Origin: a virus
Strand: one strand, 5' to 3'
Virus record (IMG/VR): IMGVR_UViG_3300011129_000041
Span: 1 to 20,936 of that record
Length of the DNA stretch: 20,936 bases
Position numbers and translations under genes: made by a program. Shown one piece after another: positions 5,211 to 14,487 of this stretch; the first letter of the stretch is position 1; each line of letters begins with the position of its first letter. The notes below the pieces were generated by a model that had not been told where the DNA came from, did not search any database, and was given only the letters and a program-made list of their open reading frames with translations.

Positions 5211-6200
5211 TTAAGCGGACTTGAACTCTACGGCCATTTCTGGACGCAGAACACCATGACCAACGAAGAGCTTGGAGACCAAGAAGTCTTCAAGACGACG
5301 AACGTCACGTTCGGTCTCAAGGCTGATGTCCATAAGCTTGCAAGTAGCAATAGCCTGTGGGCACCACATGACACCAACCGTCGTGGAGTAGTCAGCACGG
5401 TATTTACTGAACACACCACTAGCAGCAGATTCATCAGTCGTTGGCATGTTGCGGCTTTTTACCACCATCACACCATCGATGTTGATCATCTCAGCACGGT
5501 CAGAGATACCGCCTGCGTTGTCTGCCTGGAAGTCACGATTCAGAACCAAGTACTGACCATTGGAGTCGGTCGCATACTTGATGGCATCGAAGATTTCCAC
5601 AGGAACAGCACAGTACCGCTGCATATCCTCTGGAACATCCTGGTTGAACAACGCAATGTTCGCTTCGCGGATAGCGTCGATCCAAGCGATACCAGACGGC
5701 GTTGCGTCGTTAGCCAAGTTGGCGTCCGTAACAGCAGTACCACCGGGGAATGGCGCAGCTGCTGCGGTACGGGATGCCAAGATCAGCTGACGGAACACGT
5801 TCTGATCGAACACTTTAGCAAGCGCTCGGCCCATCTCGTTAGAGACGATGGAACGCATGTCGAAGTGAGACAGGATACGGTCGATATCAGAGATCGCGTA
5901 GTGCGATACAAGGATGTCGTCAACCGTGATGACCTGTTCGCTGGTCGAAAGGTCGGTCCCCAGTAGCTCAGAACCCGGCGTGTGATATTCAGCAGCCGCC
6001 TTCCAAGTTTTCGGGAAACGATAGGATTTAGCACCACCAGAAAGATTCTTAATGAAGTGCTTGTCGAGAGTAACAGTTGCGCTGTCGAAGGCCGTAAGCA
6101 CTTCGCCACCAAAGACACTGAGGAACAATTCCCGATTGTCAACTGGAGACGAAGCACCCTTACCAAAGCGAACTGGAGAGGAAGCATCACCTAATGCCAT
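5211..6200 (-). CDS. Major capsid protein, T7 gp10A-like
   Basis: This encodes a 329-residue protein, compared with 345 for T7 gp10A; the family has the HK97 fold. The N-terminus contains 'DNRELFLSVFGGEVLTAFD', followed by a 'KSYRFPKTWKA' strand and loop typical of the family. Later segments include 'VSHYAISDIDRILSHFDMR' and 'VMVVKSRNMP'. The start at 6200 has an AGGAG site seven bases upstream and follows the largest intergenic gap of the window, where a late promoter would be expected. The stop at 5211 is followed nine bases later by a terminator hairpin, so there is no room for a T7-style frameshifted long form (10B). It sits between the scaffold and tail genes in standard order. Confidence 0.96.
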   Translation of the reverse strand: MALGDASSPVRFGKGASSPVDNRELFLSVFGGEVLTAFDSATVTLDKHFIKNLSGGAKSYRFPKTWKAAAEYHTPGSELLGTDLSTSEQVITVDDILVSHYAISDIDRILSHFDMRSIVSNEMGRALAKVFDQNVFRQLILASRTAAAAPFPGGTAVTDANLANDATPSGIAWIDAIREANIALFNQDVPEDMQRYCAVPVEIFDAIKYATDSNGQYLVLNRDFQADNAGGISDRAEMINIDGVMVVKSRNMPTTDESAASGVFSKYRADYSTTVGVMWCPQAIATCKLMDISLETERDVRRLEDFLVSKLFVGHGVLRPEMAVEFKSA

Positions 6201-8918: not shown

Positions 8919-9374
8919 TTATTCTAGACAATGCATTGTTCCGATAGTCTTAAAACCTAGTCGTTCGTAAAAACGCTTAGTCTTTTCTGGGTGTATCCCG
9001 CTAGATATACCAAGAGTTATGTGTGATGCTTTTTGTTGGTCTGCCCACAGAATGTAGTTCTTTAGGATCTTAACAGCTGCGGAAGATCCACGACGCTCTG
9101 GTCGAACATAGACAATTATGTCTGACGCGATCAGCTCGTCTGTAAAGTAGTGCGCTGTGATCACAAACGCACCGAACCCTACAAGCTCATCACCATCAAG
9201 CGCATAGAACACTTTGATAATAGGGTTCTCATCGAACTGATTGTAGTACAGGTTCTCTAGCTTCTCGTAGTTTATGCTAAAGTCTTTGTAACGACCCTCT
9301 GCTTGTATAGAAGGAAACAGATCTTTGATACGGCTGAACTCTCCCTTAAGAGAAGAGGATACCTTAATACTCAT
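8919..9374 (-). CDS. GNAT-family N-acetyltransferase
   Basis: This encodes a 151-residue protein with the layout of a GCN5-related acetyltransferase. A beta-strand region 'FGAFVITAHYF' precedes motif A, where 'IIVYVRPERRGSSAAVKIL' carries the R-x-x-G-x-A/S type loop that binds the pyrophosphate of acetyl-CoA. The C-terminal motif B is 'TKRFYERLGFKTIGT', with the usual Tyr-x-x-x-Gly-Phe pattern. The substrate cannot be predicted. Acetyltransferases of this kind occur near the structural genes of several T7-like phages and may modify a host or phage protein. The start at 9374 has a good AGGAGA site inside the 3' end of the preceding small gene, which it overlaps by 11 bases. Confidence 0.88.
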   Translation of the reverse strand: MSIKVSSSLKGEFSRIKDLFPSIQAEGRYKDFSINYEKLENLYYNQFDENPIIKVFYALDGDELVGFGAFVITAHYFTDELIASDIIVYVRPERRGSSAAVKILKNYILWADQQKASHITLGISSGIHPEKTKRFYERLGFKTIGTMHCLE

Positions 9375-9581: not shown

Positions 9582-11534
9582 TTAACGACTTGCGATGTCC
9601 ACAACTTCACATACCCCAGCTGTGCAGGCAAGTTCTTGCGAGCCTGACGTGTTGTCTTCACGCTCGTAATCTTGGAGCTTAGTCCAGTCAAGAGCCGGTG
9701 GCATCGCTTCCTTAAGCGCAACATACTCAGCTTCAGTGCAATCCTGATACGGAGCCTGCTGATAAGAATGGTCAGAGTGAGGCAGGAAAGATATGCCTGA
9801 AATCTTGTCGAAGTTCTCATAGACCCAGTCTCCTACTTTTAGCCATTCGTTCTCTTTGACGCTCACAGTAACACTTGGTTTGTGTTCACACCAGTGGTCT
9901 TGGTACACACTCCACAGCTCCAGCTGTTCGATGGCCGTTAGATCGTTACGACACACCGCGTTATCTGGTGCTTTCATTGGGAACGAAAAGACCACAGTGC
10001 TTTCAGGTTTCATGAAGCAGGGCTCTGATGGAATACCAGAGTCGATCATGAACTTGGTCATTGGATCTTTAATGTCACCACGAACTGTTCGGACATAGTG
10101 TGGATTGTGTCGAGCGTGGATGCCACTAGCGCTGTCAACAAGCTGAGATACCGTACCGCTTGGCTTAACACATGTGATAGCAGCAGACTGTGGGACACCA
10201 AGCTCATACGCCAGCTCGGCGTTCACAGCAACAGCTACTTCTTTTAGTTCTTTCAGCCACGCTTCAGTTTTCTCTAGACCCTCAAAGCCATTAAGAACCT
10301 GATGATCCATGATGCCCGTAAGGCTAACGCCAAGCAGTCGTTCTTCCTCAGTGTTCTTTTTCCAGATGGGGCGAAGGTACTTAAAGTCCGTCAAGCAAGA
10401 CTGTAAGGTTCCTAAGATTGTCGCTTGGCGTACCTTTTCCTTTAGATCCTCAAGGCTATCAGTTGCTCGAACGACAACCTCGGACAAATTGCAGAACTGA
10501 TAAGGCCTCAAGATAATCTCACTGCATGGGTTGGTTCCCCAAGCAATGTCTTTGTCGGTGTTTCGTCTGCCATTCTTAGCGGCCTGCTTACGAGCTGCTT
10601 CTCGGTTGAAGATCCCACGCTCACCGGATTTACTTTCGTAGAGCGAGTGCCACTCTTGAAAGAACACAGACATATCGGGCTTCTCTTTGTACGATACGCT
10701 GTTGTTCGCTAGGCCACGCTGGGGCTCTCGTGTCCACCAGTCACCAGACTTTGCCTTCTGCATCGACGGGTCACTGAGGTTAGACAGGGAGATCAACGCG
10801 CTGCGTCGGACACCACCGACCACAACGATCTCACCGATCTTACACATGATGTCGTGGGCTTCTACAGAATGTAGACGACGGCCTTGGGCCTTATCGAACT
10901 TCTCGACACAGAAGTTAAACAGATCTTCAAGCGGCTCAGGACCAGACGCCCGTCCACCAAAAGTCTTTAGTCGTGCGCCTGCTGGGCGAACCTTTGATGT
11001 GTCCCATTTGGGAACATAGCCACGGTATAGAAGAGCTATTAGTTCCTTGAGAGCTTTGCACCAACCAATCTTGCTGTCTTCAACAACGATGTTCTGTCCA
11101 TCGACGGAGCCAGAAGCGTCACTCTTAAAACTGACAACAGGTAGCTTCAGAACACTCTCTCGTTCGACACTAAATCCTACACCTGTGCCACACATTAGAA
11201 TGTACATAGCCTCGTCGAAAGAACGCGGGCTGTCTACTGGTACATAACTACAGTTGTACGCGCCAACGTGGCAGCGATCTAACGCAGGACCAGAAGTCAT
11301 CACAGCTCGCATAGATGGCATGACACCAAGGCCAAGAACGGACTGTTTAATGGTGTCTACGTCTATGTCTAGTTTCTTTATGTCCTGCTTTTTCTGAACA
11401 TAATCAACCACATAGTTAAAGTAACGATCTACAGTTTCTCCCCAGTTCTCACGTCGTTGTTCGTCATCTTTCCATCGTGCATAACGACTAAGAGCAATGA
11501 AGTTCTGATAGTCGTTAGGTATGTAGTTGTTCAT
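9582..11534 (-). CDS. nrdJ: Adenosylcobalamin-dependent (class II, monomeric) ribonucleoside-triphosphate reductase
   Basis: This encodes a 650-residue enzyme that reduces ribonucleotides to deoxyribonucleotides with a coenzyme B12 radical. The key cysteines match the Lactobacillus leichmannii enzyme: Cys337 in 'NPCSEI' and Cys348 are 11 apart, as are Cys408 and Cys419 there. Cys95 in 'AYNCSYVP' fits Cys119, and Cys637/Cys642 near the C-terminus are five apart, as Cys731/Cys736. 'CVKPSGTVSQL' is another conserved block. It is about 90 residues shorter than the L. leichmannii protein, as is common in phages. The family is oxygen-independent but needs host cobalamin. The start overlaps the DUF3310 stop in ATGA and has AAGGA nine bases upstream. 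It supplies dNTPs for the adjacent DNA polymerase. Confidence 0.94.
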   Translation of the reverse strand: MNNYIPNDYQNFIALSRYARWKDDEQRRENWGETVDRYFNYVVDYVQKKQDIKKLDIDVDTIKQSVLGLGVMPSMRAVMTSGPALDRCHVGAYNCSYVPVDSPRSFDEAMYILMCGTGVGFSVERESVLKLPVVSFKSDASGSVDGQNIVVEDSKIGWCKALKELIALLYRGYVPKWDTSKVRPAGARLKTFGGRASGPEPLEDLFNFCVEKFDKAQGRRLHSVEAHDIMCKIGEIVVVGGVRRSALISLSNLSDPSMQKAKSGDWWTREPQRGLANNSVSYKEKPDMSVFFQEWHSLYESKSGERGIFNREAARKQAAKNGRRNTDKDIAWGTNPCSEIILRPYQFCNLSEVVVRATDSLEDLKEKVRQATILGTLQSCLTDFKYLRPIWKKNTEEERLLGVSLTGIMDHQVLNGFEGLEKTEAWLKELKEVAVAVNAELAYELGVPQSAAITCVKPSGTVSQLVDSASGIHARHNPHYVRTVRGDIKDPMTKFMIDSGIPSEPCFMKPESTVVFSFPMKAPDNAVCRNDLTAIEQLELWSVYQDHWCEHKPSVTVSVKENEWLKVGDWVYENFDKISGISFLPHSDHSYQQAPYQDCTEAEYVALKEAMPPALDWTKLQDYEREDNTSGSQELACTAGVCEVVDIASR

Positions 11535-11794
11535 GCAGACAGTTCCTTCTTTTCAAATAACACTTTTAATAGTTCGTTCAAGTACCACTCCGCTTTCTTG
11601 AGGTCTTGCGACGGGTCTTGCGGGTTCTTGGCTTGGTATCTTGAGACGTACTTGATGATGTTTCCAACGTAGACGGCTTCGTCTCCGGGGAGATCTCGAC
11701 AGATGGCTCGGATGTAATCGATGGTTTCGATTCCTCCTCGCTTGTAATGTCGGGGGTTGATGTGATCCACAAGTTTGGGTTCGACGCGCTCCAT
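11531..11794 (-). CDS. DUF3310 protein (T7 gp1.7-related domain)
   Basis: This encodes an 87-residue protein with the DUF3310 pattern: 'DHINPRHYKRGGIETIDYI' at the N-terminus, then 'VGNIIKYVSRY' and 'DLKKAEWYLNELL'. As I recall, this domain occurs in T7 gp1.7, reported as a nucleotide kinase acting on dTMP and dGMP; most family members are short and untested. Its place beside RNR and ThyX fits a nucleotide role, but that is inference. The ATG at 11794 has an excellent AGGAGA site (11804-11809). The first 217 bases lie inside the exonuclease gene in another frame. The stop overlaps the reductase start in ATGA. The family match makes this frame certain; the overlapping exonuclease tail is the more unusual of the two. 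Confidence 0.88.
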   Translation of the reverse strand: MERVEPKLVDHINPRHYKRGGIETIDYIRAICRDLPGDEAVYVGNIIKYVSRYQAKNPQDPSQDLKKAEWYLNELLKVLFEKKELSA

Positions 11795-12501
11795 AAGCGT
11801 ACTTCTCCTGTCTCTTCGTTGTAATCAGTGTGGCGTAAGATACGAGCCAGCTGCACCATCAGCGTGGCTTGCTCTTCGTTATCAAACAGTTTGACCATAG
11901 CGTCCCAAAGTCTCAAAGGGTTCGCATGTTCCTCTAAGATCTTCTCAGCTTTCTTTGGGCCTATGCCTTTGGCACCAGGGTATCCATCAGTCGAGTCGCC
12001 AACCAAAGCCTGATAGAACATCATGCGATCTGCTGACCGCTCTGAGACTTTCTGAGCCCTGTTCATCTTGTTAGGGTTAAGCACACGACCTGGGACAGTC
12101 ATCATGTCTTTATCAATGGAGACAATCACAGGATCTGATATGTGTTCAGAGCCTGCAAAGATTCCCATCACGTCATCAGCCTCAAGGCCTGGACGCCTAG
12201 CAATCTTGTAGTTCTCTTCAAGATACCTGATGGCATACTCAAGACCTACAGGCCTAGCAGAACCTCTACGGTTGCCTTTGTACTCAGGGTAGATGATGTG
12301 CCGAAAGTATTTATGACTAGCATCAGACAGGCATACGATACTGCTGCCAGCTTTGGCCATCGTTTGCCAACTCTGTACCATAGTGTCTATGGATCTTGCG
12401 ACATTAGCGTCGGCACAGATCTTCTCGCCGTCGAAGTCCACCTCGTTAACGATGGCACAACGATAGGCAATGATGTCTCCATCAAGCAGAGCCACTGTCA
12501 T
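11578..12501 (-). CDS. 5'-3' exonuclease, T7 gp6-like (FEN/PIN fold)
   Basis: This encodes a 307-residue nuclease that removes RNA primers and degrades DNA ends, feeding nucleotides to phage synthesis. Metal-binding acidic residues appear in 'LLDGDIIAYR' (about residues 5-14), 'LEADDVMG' (106-113) and 'SIDKDMM' (128-134). 'GDSTDGYPGAKGIGPKKAEKIL' (168-189) is the helix-three-turn-helix of the FEN family. The recognisable domain ends near residue 235. The remaining 70 residues are Ser/Thr/Lys/Arg-rich, with a basic end (KTRRKTSRKRSGT), and overlap the DUF3310 gene in another frame. T7 gp6 is 300 residues in total. The start shares a TGATG junction with the DNA polymerase stop, so translation is probably coupled. 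Confidence 0.92.
   Translation of the reverse strand: MTVALLDGDIIAYRCAIVNEVDFDGEKICADANVARSIDTMVQSWQTMAKAGSSIVCLSDASHKYFRHIIYPEYKGNRRGSARPVGLEYAIRYLEENYKIARRPGLEADDVMGIFAGSEHISDPVIVSIDKDMMTVPGRVLNPNKMNRAQKVSERSADRMMFYQALVGDSTDGYPGAKGIGPKKAEKILEEHANPLRLWDAMVKLFDNEEQATLMVQLARILRHTDYNEETGEVRLWSASNPNLWITSTPDITSEEESKPSITSEPSVEISPETKPSTLETSSSTSQDTKPRTRKTRRKTSRKRSGT
11804..11809 (-). promoter_or_regulatory. Ribosome binding site of the DUF3310 gene inside the exonuclease coding region
   Basis: AGGAGA lies nine bases before the ATG at 11794, within the exonuclease frame (about codons 231-233). It decides the start of the out-of-frame DUF3310 gene and supports real internal initiation. Confidence 0.75.
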
Positions 12502-14219
12502 CAGTGTGTTTCCTTCCAGTTAGCGCCTATCTCATAAGTGCCACTAAGTGGACACCTCATGCCTAGACGTACAGCAGCTTCGGTTATGCTGTCAGCAAAC
12601 GTCTGCCCGACAGTATCAGCAACATCCGGGTCAGAACTGAACTGAACCTCGTCGTGCACGTTCGCCACATAGGCAAAACCTTTCAGCTGTCCATCGACGA
12701 CCAGTTGTTTCTTTACCGCCAGGTCATAATGGAAAACCTGCGCCGCCTTCTTCATTACAACAGCACCACAGGACTGAAGCAGGAAGTTCAATGCGCTGTG
12801 TGGAGACCTGATGGTTATCTTACGACCATCGATAGCCTTGAACCAACCGGCCTTAGCTCTCTTCTGGATACTATCAGACAATTCACCAAGGCCGTCGATG
12901 CCTTCGTCCATACGCTTGCGGATCTCTTTGCCATCCTTAAGAGGACCACCCGCTTCCTTAGATATCGAAGCGAGCTTACGATCTGAAGCACCATACAGAT
13001 AGGCATACTGCATACGCTTGGCTTCGTCTCGTGTTGGAAGTTCCACAAGCTTCTGGGTTCTAGAGTGAACGTCAGTGCCTTCTTCCTTGGAGCCATACAA
13101 CAAGGCATCACGATAGACACCGTTGTCGTACTTGCCCAGGTAGTGCGCTAGGCACACCAGCTCCAAGGCGTCAGCGTCACAGCCAACAAGAACTTGGCCC
13201 TCGTCAGCCACCCAGACCTCACGCATACGCAGGTCTTTCTTATCGACCTGGGCCATGTTGGGTTTGAAGTGACTGCACCTGTGCGTAGCTGTACCCATCG
13301 AGGACACACCGCCGTGGACGCGATCACCACGCACAAGCTTAAGCCATCCGTTGTCACCGTCACTGAGTTGACCCAGTTGCTTTTGGACCCTGAAGTACCT
13401 AGCGAGCTGCTTGGCCTCTGGGTACGGCAGGTTCGACAAGACCACCTCGTCAATCTTAGGCCCACCAGAAGGCGTGAAGCTCTTTGGTTTCCAGTCGTGT
13501 GTCTCAGCCAAGCGCTCCGCAATCATCTTGCGTGAGCCTGGATTGAACACCTCGACCTTATCCTTGAGACGCTTTCCGGTCTTCTCGGACCAACGCTCTA
13601 TGGTCTTCGAGGGCCACAGGTCTTGTAGCTCTTCCTCAAGATTGGAGATCTCTTGGCGCAGCTCAGAACAAAGATCGTTAGCTTTGTCGAGATCCAAACG
13701 AAACCCGTGTTCCTCTTGAAGCTGAAGGACACGAACAAAGTCTGCTTCAAGTTTGTAAGCGTCAGAGTCCTTCACACTTTTGGTCTTGTCGTAAACGTAC
13801 TGCGTGATCTTAACATCGACCTTACAGTACTCAGCCATCTCATCAGTGAACTTGGTGAAGTCGCTGTAGTCTAGCTTTTCTTCTCCAAGTTCTCGGCCAT
13901 AGTCTTTAATAGAGTGGCCCCTTCTTGTTGAGTCTTTGAGACGGCTTCCAACCAACGTGTCAAAGACTTTTGAGTAATCGAGTATTCCGGTTCCATAAAG
14001 TCGAACGATGGCCGGGATGTCGAATCCAATTCCGTTATGGAAGACAACGCAATCTGCTCCAGACAGTCGGCTGAGTCCCTCAGAGATTGGGCGATAACCC
14101 TCGTGGTCTGCGTAAATTGTGACAGCATCTTCAGTTGTGTCCTTTATTGCCAAACAATGACAGAGTGTCATTTGGTGGAGAAACCCATCGGTCTCTATGT
14201 CCGCTATCAGCGTCGTCAT
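12501..14219 (-). CDS. Family A DNA polymerase with 3'-5' exonuclease, T7 gp5-like
   Basis: I place the start at the ATG at 14219 (AAGGA eight bases upstream), giving 572 residues that begin MTTLIADIETDGF. A longer frame from 14297 has no such support. Proofreading motifs are Exo I D7/E9 ('ADIETDG'), Exo II 'FHNGIGFD' (N62, D67) and Exo III 'YCKVD' (Y131, D135). Polymerase motif A is 'VGCDADALELVCLAH' (D348), motif B R397-DEA-K401-RMQ-Y405-AYL-Y409, and motif C 'VHDEV' (D523). Y405 aligns with T7 Y526 and E. coli Pol I F762. The protein is shorter than T7 gp5 (704), as in cyanophage-type relatives. The 3' end shares TGATG with the exonuclease. The T7 enzyme uses host thioredoxin for processivity; whether this one does is not visible. 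Confidence 0.96.
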   Translation of the reverse strand: MTTLIADIETDGFLHQMTLCHCLAIKDTTEDAVTIYADHEGYRPISEGLSRLSGADCVVFHNGIGFDIPAIVRLYGTGILDYSKVFDTLVGSRLKDSTRRGHSIKDYGRELGEEKLDYSDFTKFTDEMAEYCKVDVKITQYVYDKTKSVKDSDAYKLEADFVRVLQLQEEHGFRLDLDKANDLCSELRQEISNLEEELQDLWPSKTIERWSEKTGKRLKDKVEVFNPGSRKMIAERLAETHDWKPKSFTPSGGPKIDEVVLSNLPYPEAKQLARYFRVQKQLGQLSDGDNGWLKLVRGDRVHGGVSSMGTATHRCSHFKPNMAQVDKKDLRMREVWVADEGQVLVGCDADALELVCLAHYLGKYDNGVYRDALLYGSKEEGTDVHSRTQKLVELPTRDEAKRMQYAYLYGASDRKLASISKEAGGPLKDGKEIRKRMDEGIDGLGELSDSIQKRAKAGWFKAIDGRKITIRSPHSALNFLLQSCGAVVMKKAAQVFHYDLAVKKQLVVDGQLKGFAYVANVHDEVQFSSDPDVADTVGQTFADSITEAAVRLGMRCPLSGTYEIGANWKETH

Positions 14220-14487
14220 TCTGTCGTTCCTTTTCGTGTAACATCCGGTGGCAGTTGGCACACAACATCGTGCATCCCATCGCCTCTTCGAGAACATCTT
14301 TCCAAGAGTGGTCTGTCATACCGCTTACCGACAATACAAACCGTTTGCTCGCTGGGTCTCTGTGGTGAAAGTCAAAGACACAAGCGTCATGCTTTTGTCC
14401 ACAGCTTTCACAAACACCACCCTTTAGATCGACAAGTTTCTGTCGGATCTTACGCCTCTTGGTTCGGCGTCCCTTATGAGAAGTCAT
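14131..14487 (-). CDS. HNH homing-type endonuclease
   Basis: This encodes a 118-residue protein with a basic N-terminus (KGRRTKRRKIRQK). It has two zinc-binding pairs, 'CESC' near residue 27 and 'CANC' near residue 76. The HNH core is 'DFHHRDP' followed by 'LCANCHRMLHEK'. Such free-standing nucleases nick or cut DNA and spread by homing; T7 carries several between its genes. It is wedged between primase-helicase and DNA polymerase. The start at 14487 overlaps the helicase stop by 14 bases and has AGAGG six bases upstream. The last 89 bases overlap the polymerase start in another frame. The residues after the final motif (about 88-118) look non-conserved. The HNH assignment is firm; mobility is inferred. 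Confidence 0.92.
   Translation of the reverse strand: MTSHKGRRTKRRKIRQKLVDLKGGVCESCGQKHDACVFDFHHRDPASKRFVLSVSGMTDHSWKDVLEEAMGCTMLCANCHRMLHEKERQNDDADSGHRDRWVSPPNDTLSLFGNKGHN
14228..14232 (-). promoter_or_regulatory. Ribosome binding site that sets the DNA polymerase start
   Basis: AAGGA lies eight bases upstream of the ATG at 14219, inside the 3' part of the HNH gene. Together with the conserved MTTLIADIETDG start it excludes the longer reading from 14297. Confidence 0.7.

Follow-up and report, generated by a model that had tools for sequence, protein, structure and literature searches.

A putatively disordered exonuclease tail, probably overprinted on a DUF3310 gene and kept by selection in T7-like phages

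Two genes of an environmental phage, encoding an exonuclease and a DUF3310 protein, overlap out of frame, and this raises the question of whether the part of the exonuclease that is read across DUF3310 is a functional tail or a by-product of a lost stop codon. The window, i.e., the whole stretch of DNA analyzed, comprises 20,936 nucleotides of the IMG/VR record IMGVR_UViG_3300011129_000041. On its minus strand, the exonuclease ORF (12501..11578, 307 aa) and the DUF3310 ORF (11794..11531, 87 aa) share 217 nt (11578..11794) in the same orientation, with the tail frame lying 1 nt 3' of the DUF3310 frame (+1 relative to DUF3310). The ORF coordinates and Pfam support for both proteins confirmed the 217-base out-of-frame overlap claimed in an initial annotation. 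Its 70 further exonuclease codons correspond to tail residues 238-307 (11581..11790, minus strand), followed by the exonuclease stop codon (11578..11580, minus strand) within DUF3310.

The window is derived from an environmental virus contig, that of a T7-like phage encoding an RNA polymerase of its own. Pfam matches to a single-subunit RNA polymerase, T7-type helicase-primase, connector, tail tube, nozzle, and capsid place it among T7-like podoviruses (Autographiviridae-like). In addition to the helicase-primase and structural genes, the window carries genes for family A polymerase, class II ribonucleotide reductase (RNR), ThyX, RusA, SSB, and integrase. The window phage is distant from described phages, its RNA polymerase sharing at most about 29% identity with theirs among the matches listed. 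RNR was the sole match to described phages in a DNA-level search, and the HMO-2011 and CRP phages, reached via the RNR matches, differ in gene order.

The exonuclease core (residues 1-237; 11791..12501, minus strand) matched the Pfam families 5_3_exonuc_N (PF02739, E=6e-13) and 5_3_exonuc (PF01367, E=3e-10), both passing the gathering score (49.2 vs 34.3 and 41 vs 40 bits, respectively). Residues D7, D9, E107, D109, D110, D130, D132, D169, and D172, the acidic residues with metal-site roles in this family, were invariant in the alignment of relatives (A1). The AlphaFold structure was confident to about residue 249, and the model matched T5 FEN and ExoIX, with the FEN/T5 5'-nuclease fold. These results indicate that the window protein is a T7 gp6/FEN-type 5'-3' exonuclease of the FEN superfamily with predicted nuclease activity; the pI of its core is 5.6. 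It shares its fold and Pfam domains with the flap-type 5'-3' exonucleases T7 gp6, T5 D15, and ExoIX, but the related phage exonucleases in the records examined, unlike that of the window, end no more than about 25 residues past the core; in the described phages examined, the stop comes at most about 20 codons after this point. The DUF3310 protein (11531..11794, minus strand) matched PF11753 with 65.4 bits against a cut-off of 24 (E=4.8e-18). It falls in PHROG families annotated as nucleotide kinase, names that suggest a nucleotide-kinase activity.

The core ends with the conserved motif GEVRLW, whose codons also contain both initiation signals of the next gene, its ribosome site and its start codon (11792-11809 in the window, and in relatives). 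In the tailed clade and most relatives, the start codon of this gene is part of an ATGG within the L-W codons, 4 nt ahead of the end of the core, and GGAGAAG in the GEV codons forms a ribosome-site-like motif. In the window, the ribosome-binding-like site AGGAGAAG (11802-11809, minus strand) lies 7 nt upstream of the DUF3310 ATG, and a Shine-Dalgarno (SD)-like motif precedes the next gene in 27/28 tailed loci. The initial annotation had placed both the domain end and the ATG near residue 235; the ATG does lie within the L236-W237 codons, but the core ends at W237.

An overlap of this kind could be false, owing to a sequencing or assembly error or a wrongly assigned DUF3310 start, and the window itself is one environmental contig. 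However, the tail is retained in about ten independent contigs whose exonuclease cores share 92-98% identity, which excludes the sequencing error that the initial annotation had named as a possible cause of the open frame, and the overlap also occurs in a bacterial isolate and in some 20 divergent lineages. Furthermore, just about 10 residues separate the ATG from the DUF3310 motif, and a later start would hence cut few bases from the overlap. A false overlap is therefore barely conceivable.

Among relatives, tail length was bimodal, with most exonucleases stopping 2-25 codons past the core, whereas one clade conserves tails of 52-114 residues. Apparent tails of 48-52 aa in actinobacterial loci were left out, since these are distant bacterial exonucleases with about 25-30% identity. 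In a core-only tree, 22 tailed rows fell within a clade of 25 (support 99/95), and tailed and untailed states changed twice, compared with 19.8 changes in shuffles. Three Bermanella-type loci with 19-aa tails grouped with the tailed loci in this tree. One gain and one loss would be the simplest history of the tail, although a single tailed clade without the Bermanella-type loci was not rejected (p-AU 0.43). Since DUF3310 also occupies the corresponding site in short-tailed relatives, and the tailed loci belong to a single derived clade, the tail frame is the younger of the two, in agreement with the initial annotation. In the Bermanella-type loci, LW is kept without the ribosome site and without the overlap; one of them (L230) has a MazG-like gene downstream, with no overlap.

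Within the exonuclease clade, the overlap persists even where core identity is as low as about 40%. This tailed clade consists of environmental contigs and one prophage, a T7-like element in the cultured bacterium Marivibrio halodurans CGMCC 1.15697 (L231, NZ_JAGMWN010000001.1), in which the tailed exonuclease adjoins polymerase and RNR genes. When two more tailed exonucleases were searched against described phages, the alignments among the matches listed ended at the core. In several lineages (e.g., L191, L200, L202, L036, L038, L113, L203, and L206), the exonuclease frame encloses the whole of DUF3310. Two others carry DUF6378 under the tail instead, beginning at the same start site (L011:3711-4037 and L112:3205-3522). 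The DUF6378 leader of L112 (MAPVEERHLDE...) resembles the DUF3310 start of L012; therefore, the DUF3310 body appears to have been swapped for DUF6378 while the tail frame stayed open. In a contig of the window clade (L019:1-323), a stop codon ends the tail seven residues early and SRKRSGT is missing, so the very end of the tail may be dispensable.

The tail might nevertheless be a neutral by-product, i.e., a harmless read-through product of a chance stop loss whose make-up merely mirrors the DUF3310 codons. For a single locus, the open frame says little against this: synonymous-codon resampling of the DUF3310 genes of the nearest relatives gave a 70-codon open frame with a chance of about 0.04-0.07, so the window alone is just mildly surprising, and the plain open-frame argument (P about 0.05) was set aside as too weak. 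The K/R content of the tail, which follows from the DUF3310 code, and the shortened tail of L019 are likewise in keeping with a by-product. The weight is carried by conservation. The exonuclease frame is open for 52-114 codons in all 28 distinct tailed loci, even at a GC3 of 0.26, whereas all 34 short-tailed DUF3310 controls had at least two stops in this frame (8.6 per 100 codons). Each tailed locus has 9-23 routes to a stop by one DUF3310-synonymous step, and these are unused. Because the tail is kept despite so many routes, its use rather than its tolerance is suggested.

Additional evidence came from the DUF3310 codons, compared with the core in two clades with the tail and in two control clades that were usable. 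The proportion of variable third positions was reduced in DUF3310 relative to the core both in the window clade (10/70 vs 89/230, p=1.3e-4) and in a second tailed clade (that of L117; 12/83 vs 92/236, p=3.5e-5), with no drop in the two untailed clades (15/69 vs 63/243 and 19/69 vs 73/243). The pooled values were p=6e-9 for the tailed clades and p=0.5 for the controls. Another control clade (B) ran the opposite way (0/243 in the core vs 5/65 in DUF3310), with almost no core variation, and was kept out of the support.

The third base of each DUF3310 codon is the second base of a tail codon; therefore, the choice of C or T there sets whether the tail residue is hydrophilic (S/T/P/A) or hydrophobic (F/L/I/M/V), and neither base yields a stop in the tail frame. 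In all 21 tailed lineages, C-ending codons were more frequent in the overlap than in the exonuclease core (by 0.27, compared with 0.03 in controls), a preference that also held against the upstream and downstream genes. Where the next gene outlasts the exonuclease, C-ending codons within this same gene fell past the exonuclease stop from 221/265 to 32/68 (p=5e-9). Reduced third-position variability and C bias, both confined to tailed loci, thus mark 11578..11794 (minus strand) as dual coding and bear out the constraint in both frames that the initial annotation had proposed to look for. The overlap can accordingly be counted among overprinted overlaps, as a same-strand, out-of-frame pair of one older and one younger frame with constraint in both. 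Its frame having stayed open across deep divergence and its codons having shifted toward a hydrophilic tail, the neutral by-product considered in the initial annotation is very unlikely.

The 70 residues of the window tail include 29 Ser/Thr, 7 Pro, and 12 Lys/Arg, and just 9 A/I/L/V/W; its pI is 9.7, and that of its last 22 residues is 12. The AlphaFold pLDDT was below 50 at residues 250-307, which are thus predicted to be disordered. Unconditioned synonymous resampling in 19 tailed lineages gave mean z values of +4.5 for S/T, -3.8 for hydrophobics, +2.4 for acidic residues, and -0.6 for K/R; the values for short-tailed controls were near 0, and the pattern persisted when resampling was conditioned on an open frame. 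Tail composition was near null in the two DUF6378 loci. Since the lineages share ancestry, these per-lineage statistics are not fully independent. K/R enrichment was rejected as a selected trait, as it did not exceed the null across lineages, and a basic C-terminus was clearly above expectation mainly in the subgroup of the window. The low-complexity, basic, disordered tail of the initial annotation therefore holds as to disorder, while its basic content is mostly what the DUF3310 code gives anyway. Instead, the selected property appears to be Ser/Thr richness together with a lack of hydrophobics.

The same codon signals could act at the level of RNA or translation, through structure or through codon use for internal initiation or coupling, rather than through the tail protein. 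In line with this, the next gene starts from an SD site inside the exonuclease, and ribosomes reading the tail cross that start. However, we found no conserved RNA fold or covariation across the overlap, the C bias weakens once the exonuclease has stopped although the underlying gene continues, and it is absent from short-tailed phages whose next gene starts at the same site, making an RNA-level signal highly improbable. We infer from the sequences that the tail is translated and that it is a protein-level, mostly compositional trait, namely a disordered hydrophilic arm.

Selection might also act just for harmlessness, in that a translated tail with no positive role must avoid hydrophobics that trigger degradation or aggregation. 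The strongest signal is indeed hydrophobic depletion and the choice of C for T, and positional conservation beyond codon counts was modest (mean z 2.1 over 153 pairs). Nevertheless, a useless tail should often regain stops by single DUF3310-synonymous changes, and this is not seen outside the Bermanella group, which has lost the overlap altogether, and L019, with its 7-aa loss. We therefore regard selection for harmlessness as unlikely.

Taken together, the sequence comparisons make it likely that a stop was lost in the clade ancestor and that the resulting tail was overprinted on DUF3310 and kept by selection. The ancestral exonuclease would have ended a few codons after GEVRLW, just inside the DUF3310 start, as in most related phages. 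Loss of this stop in the clade ancestor would have let the frame run on through DUF3310, adding a disordered, Ser/Thr-rich, mostly basic-ended tail of 50-110 residues, with DUF3310 presumably still initiated internally from the ribosome site in the GEV codons. Selection would then keep the tail, at the cost of synonymous freedom in DUF3310, and the codon bias would exclude hydrophobics from it.

By analogy with other FEN nucleases, this tail could act as a flexible arm, keeping the exonuclease with its acidic core attached to DNA or to another component of the replisome, for example the phage SSB (16429-16977) with its acidic tip. The acidic core, the basic-ended arm, and the acidic tip (ELEADDF) at the end of the phage SSB point to such a tether, which we propose tentatively, with slightly less than even confidence; a linker, solubility, or dosage-control role would account for the rest. 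In a broader reading, for which we judge the prospects evenly balanced, one DNA stretch in a deep marine T7-like phage clade would code for a protein of nucleotide metabolism as well as for a disordered arm that targets the replication exonuclease, the arm being kept whichever protein underlies it (DUF3310 or DUF6378) by selection on disorder and charge, not on sequence.

Long same-strand overlaps with dual-frame constraint are familiar chiefly from small viruses whose genome size is strictly limited. We found no published description of the exonuclease/DUF3310 overlap in the literature searched. It represents a long dual-constrained case in dsDNA phages, with a whole gene nested in some lineages, and comes with built-in controls in the form of untailed relatives that share the start site, a replacement of the gene beneath the tail, and one loss. 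It suggests that de novo tails can be selected for composition (disorder), and that gene callers penalizing overlaps could truncate or misjudge real proteins.

The C-terminal tail of human FEN1 is basic and binds partners. This tail is flexible (PMC6009646), and the phage exonuclease similarly carries a disordered C-terminal arm on a nuclease of the same superfamily, although the phage tail is not homologous and is overprinted. In a systematic review, the C-terminal region of the phiX174 protein A was described as a de novo overlapping extension, and de novo frames were found to lean to disorder, with those in the +1 frame enriched in hydrophobics (PMC8227390). As in protein A, an older protein has been extended C-terminally by a new frame through a neighboring gene, here in a dsDNA T7-like phage with an exonuclease over DUF3310. 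The tail fits the trends of that review as a disordered de novo extension, but departs from the +1 hydrophobic enrichment in being hydrophilic. Rz/Rz1 of dsDNA phages are genes nested in different frames, whose products act together in lysis. The present pair shares with them the arrangement of a gene within another gene in a different frame of a dsDNA phage, but involves a replication enzyme and DUF3310, with the overlap limited to the exonuclease tail.

Additionally, other features of the window were observed. A GNAT acetyltransferase gene (8919-9374, minus strand) lies close to the head-tail connector gene. An HNH-like protein (CxxC, HH, CANCH) without a Pfam match is encoded at 14131-14487 (minus strand), covering the first codons of the ORF listed as the polymerase. 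An open frame of 236 codons (5256-5966, plus strand) runs antisense to the major capsid gene and is probably a shadow of the codon use of that gene.
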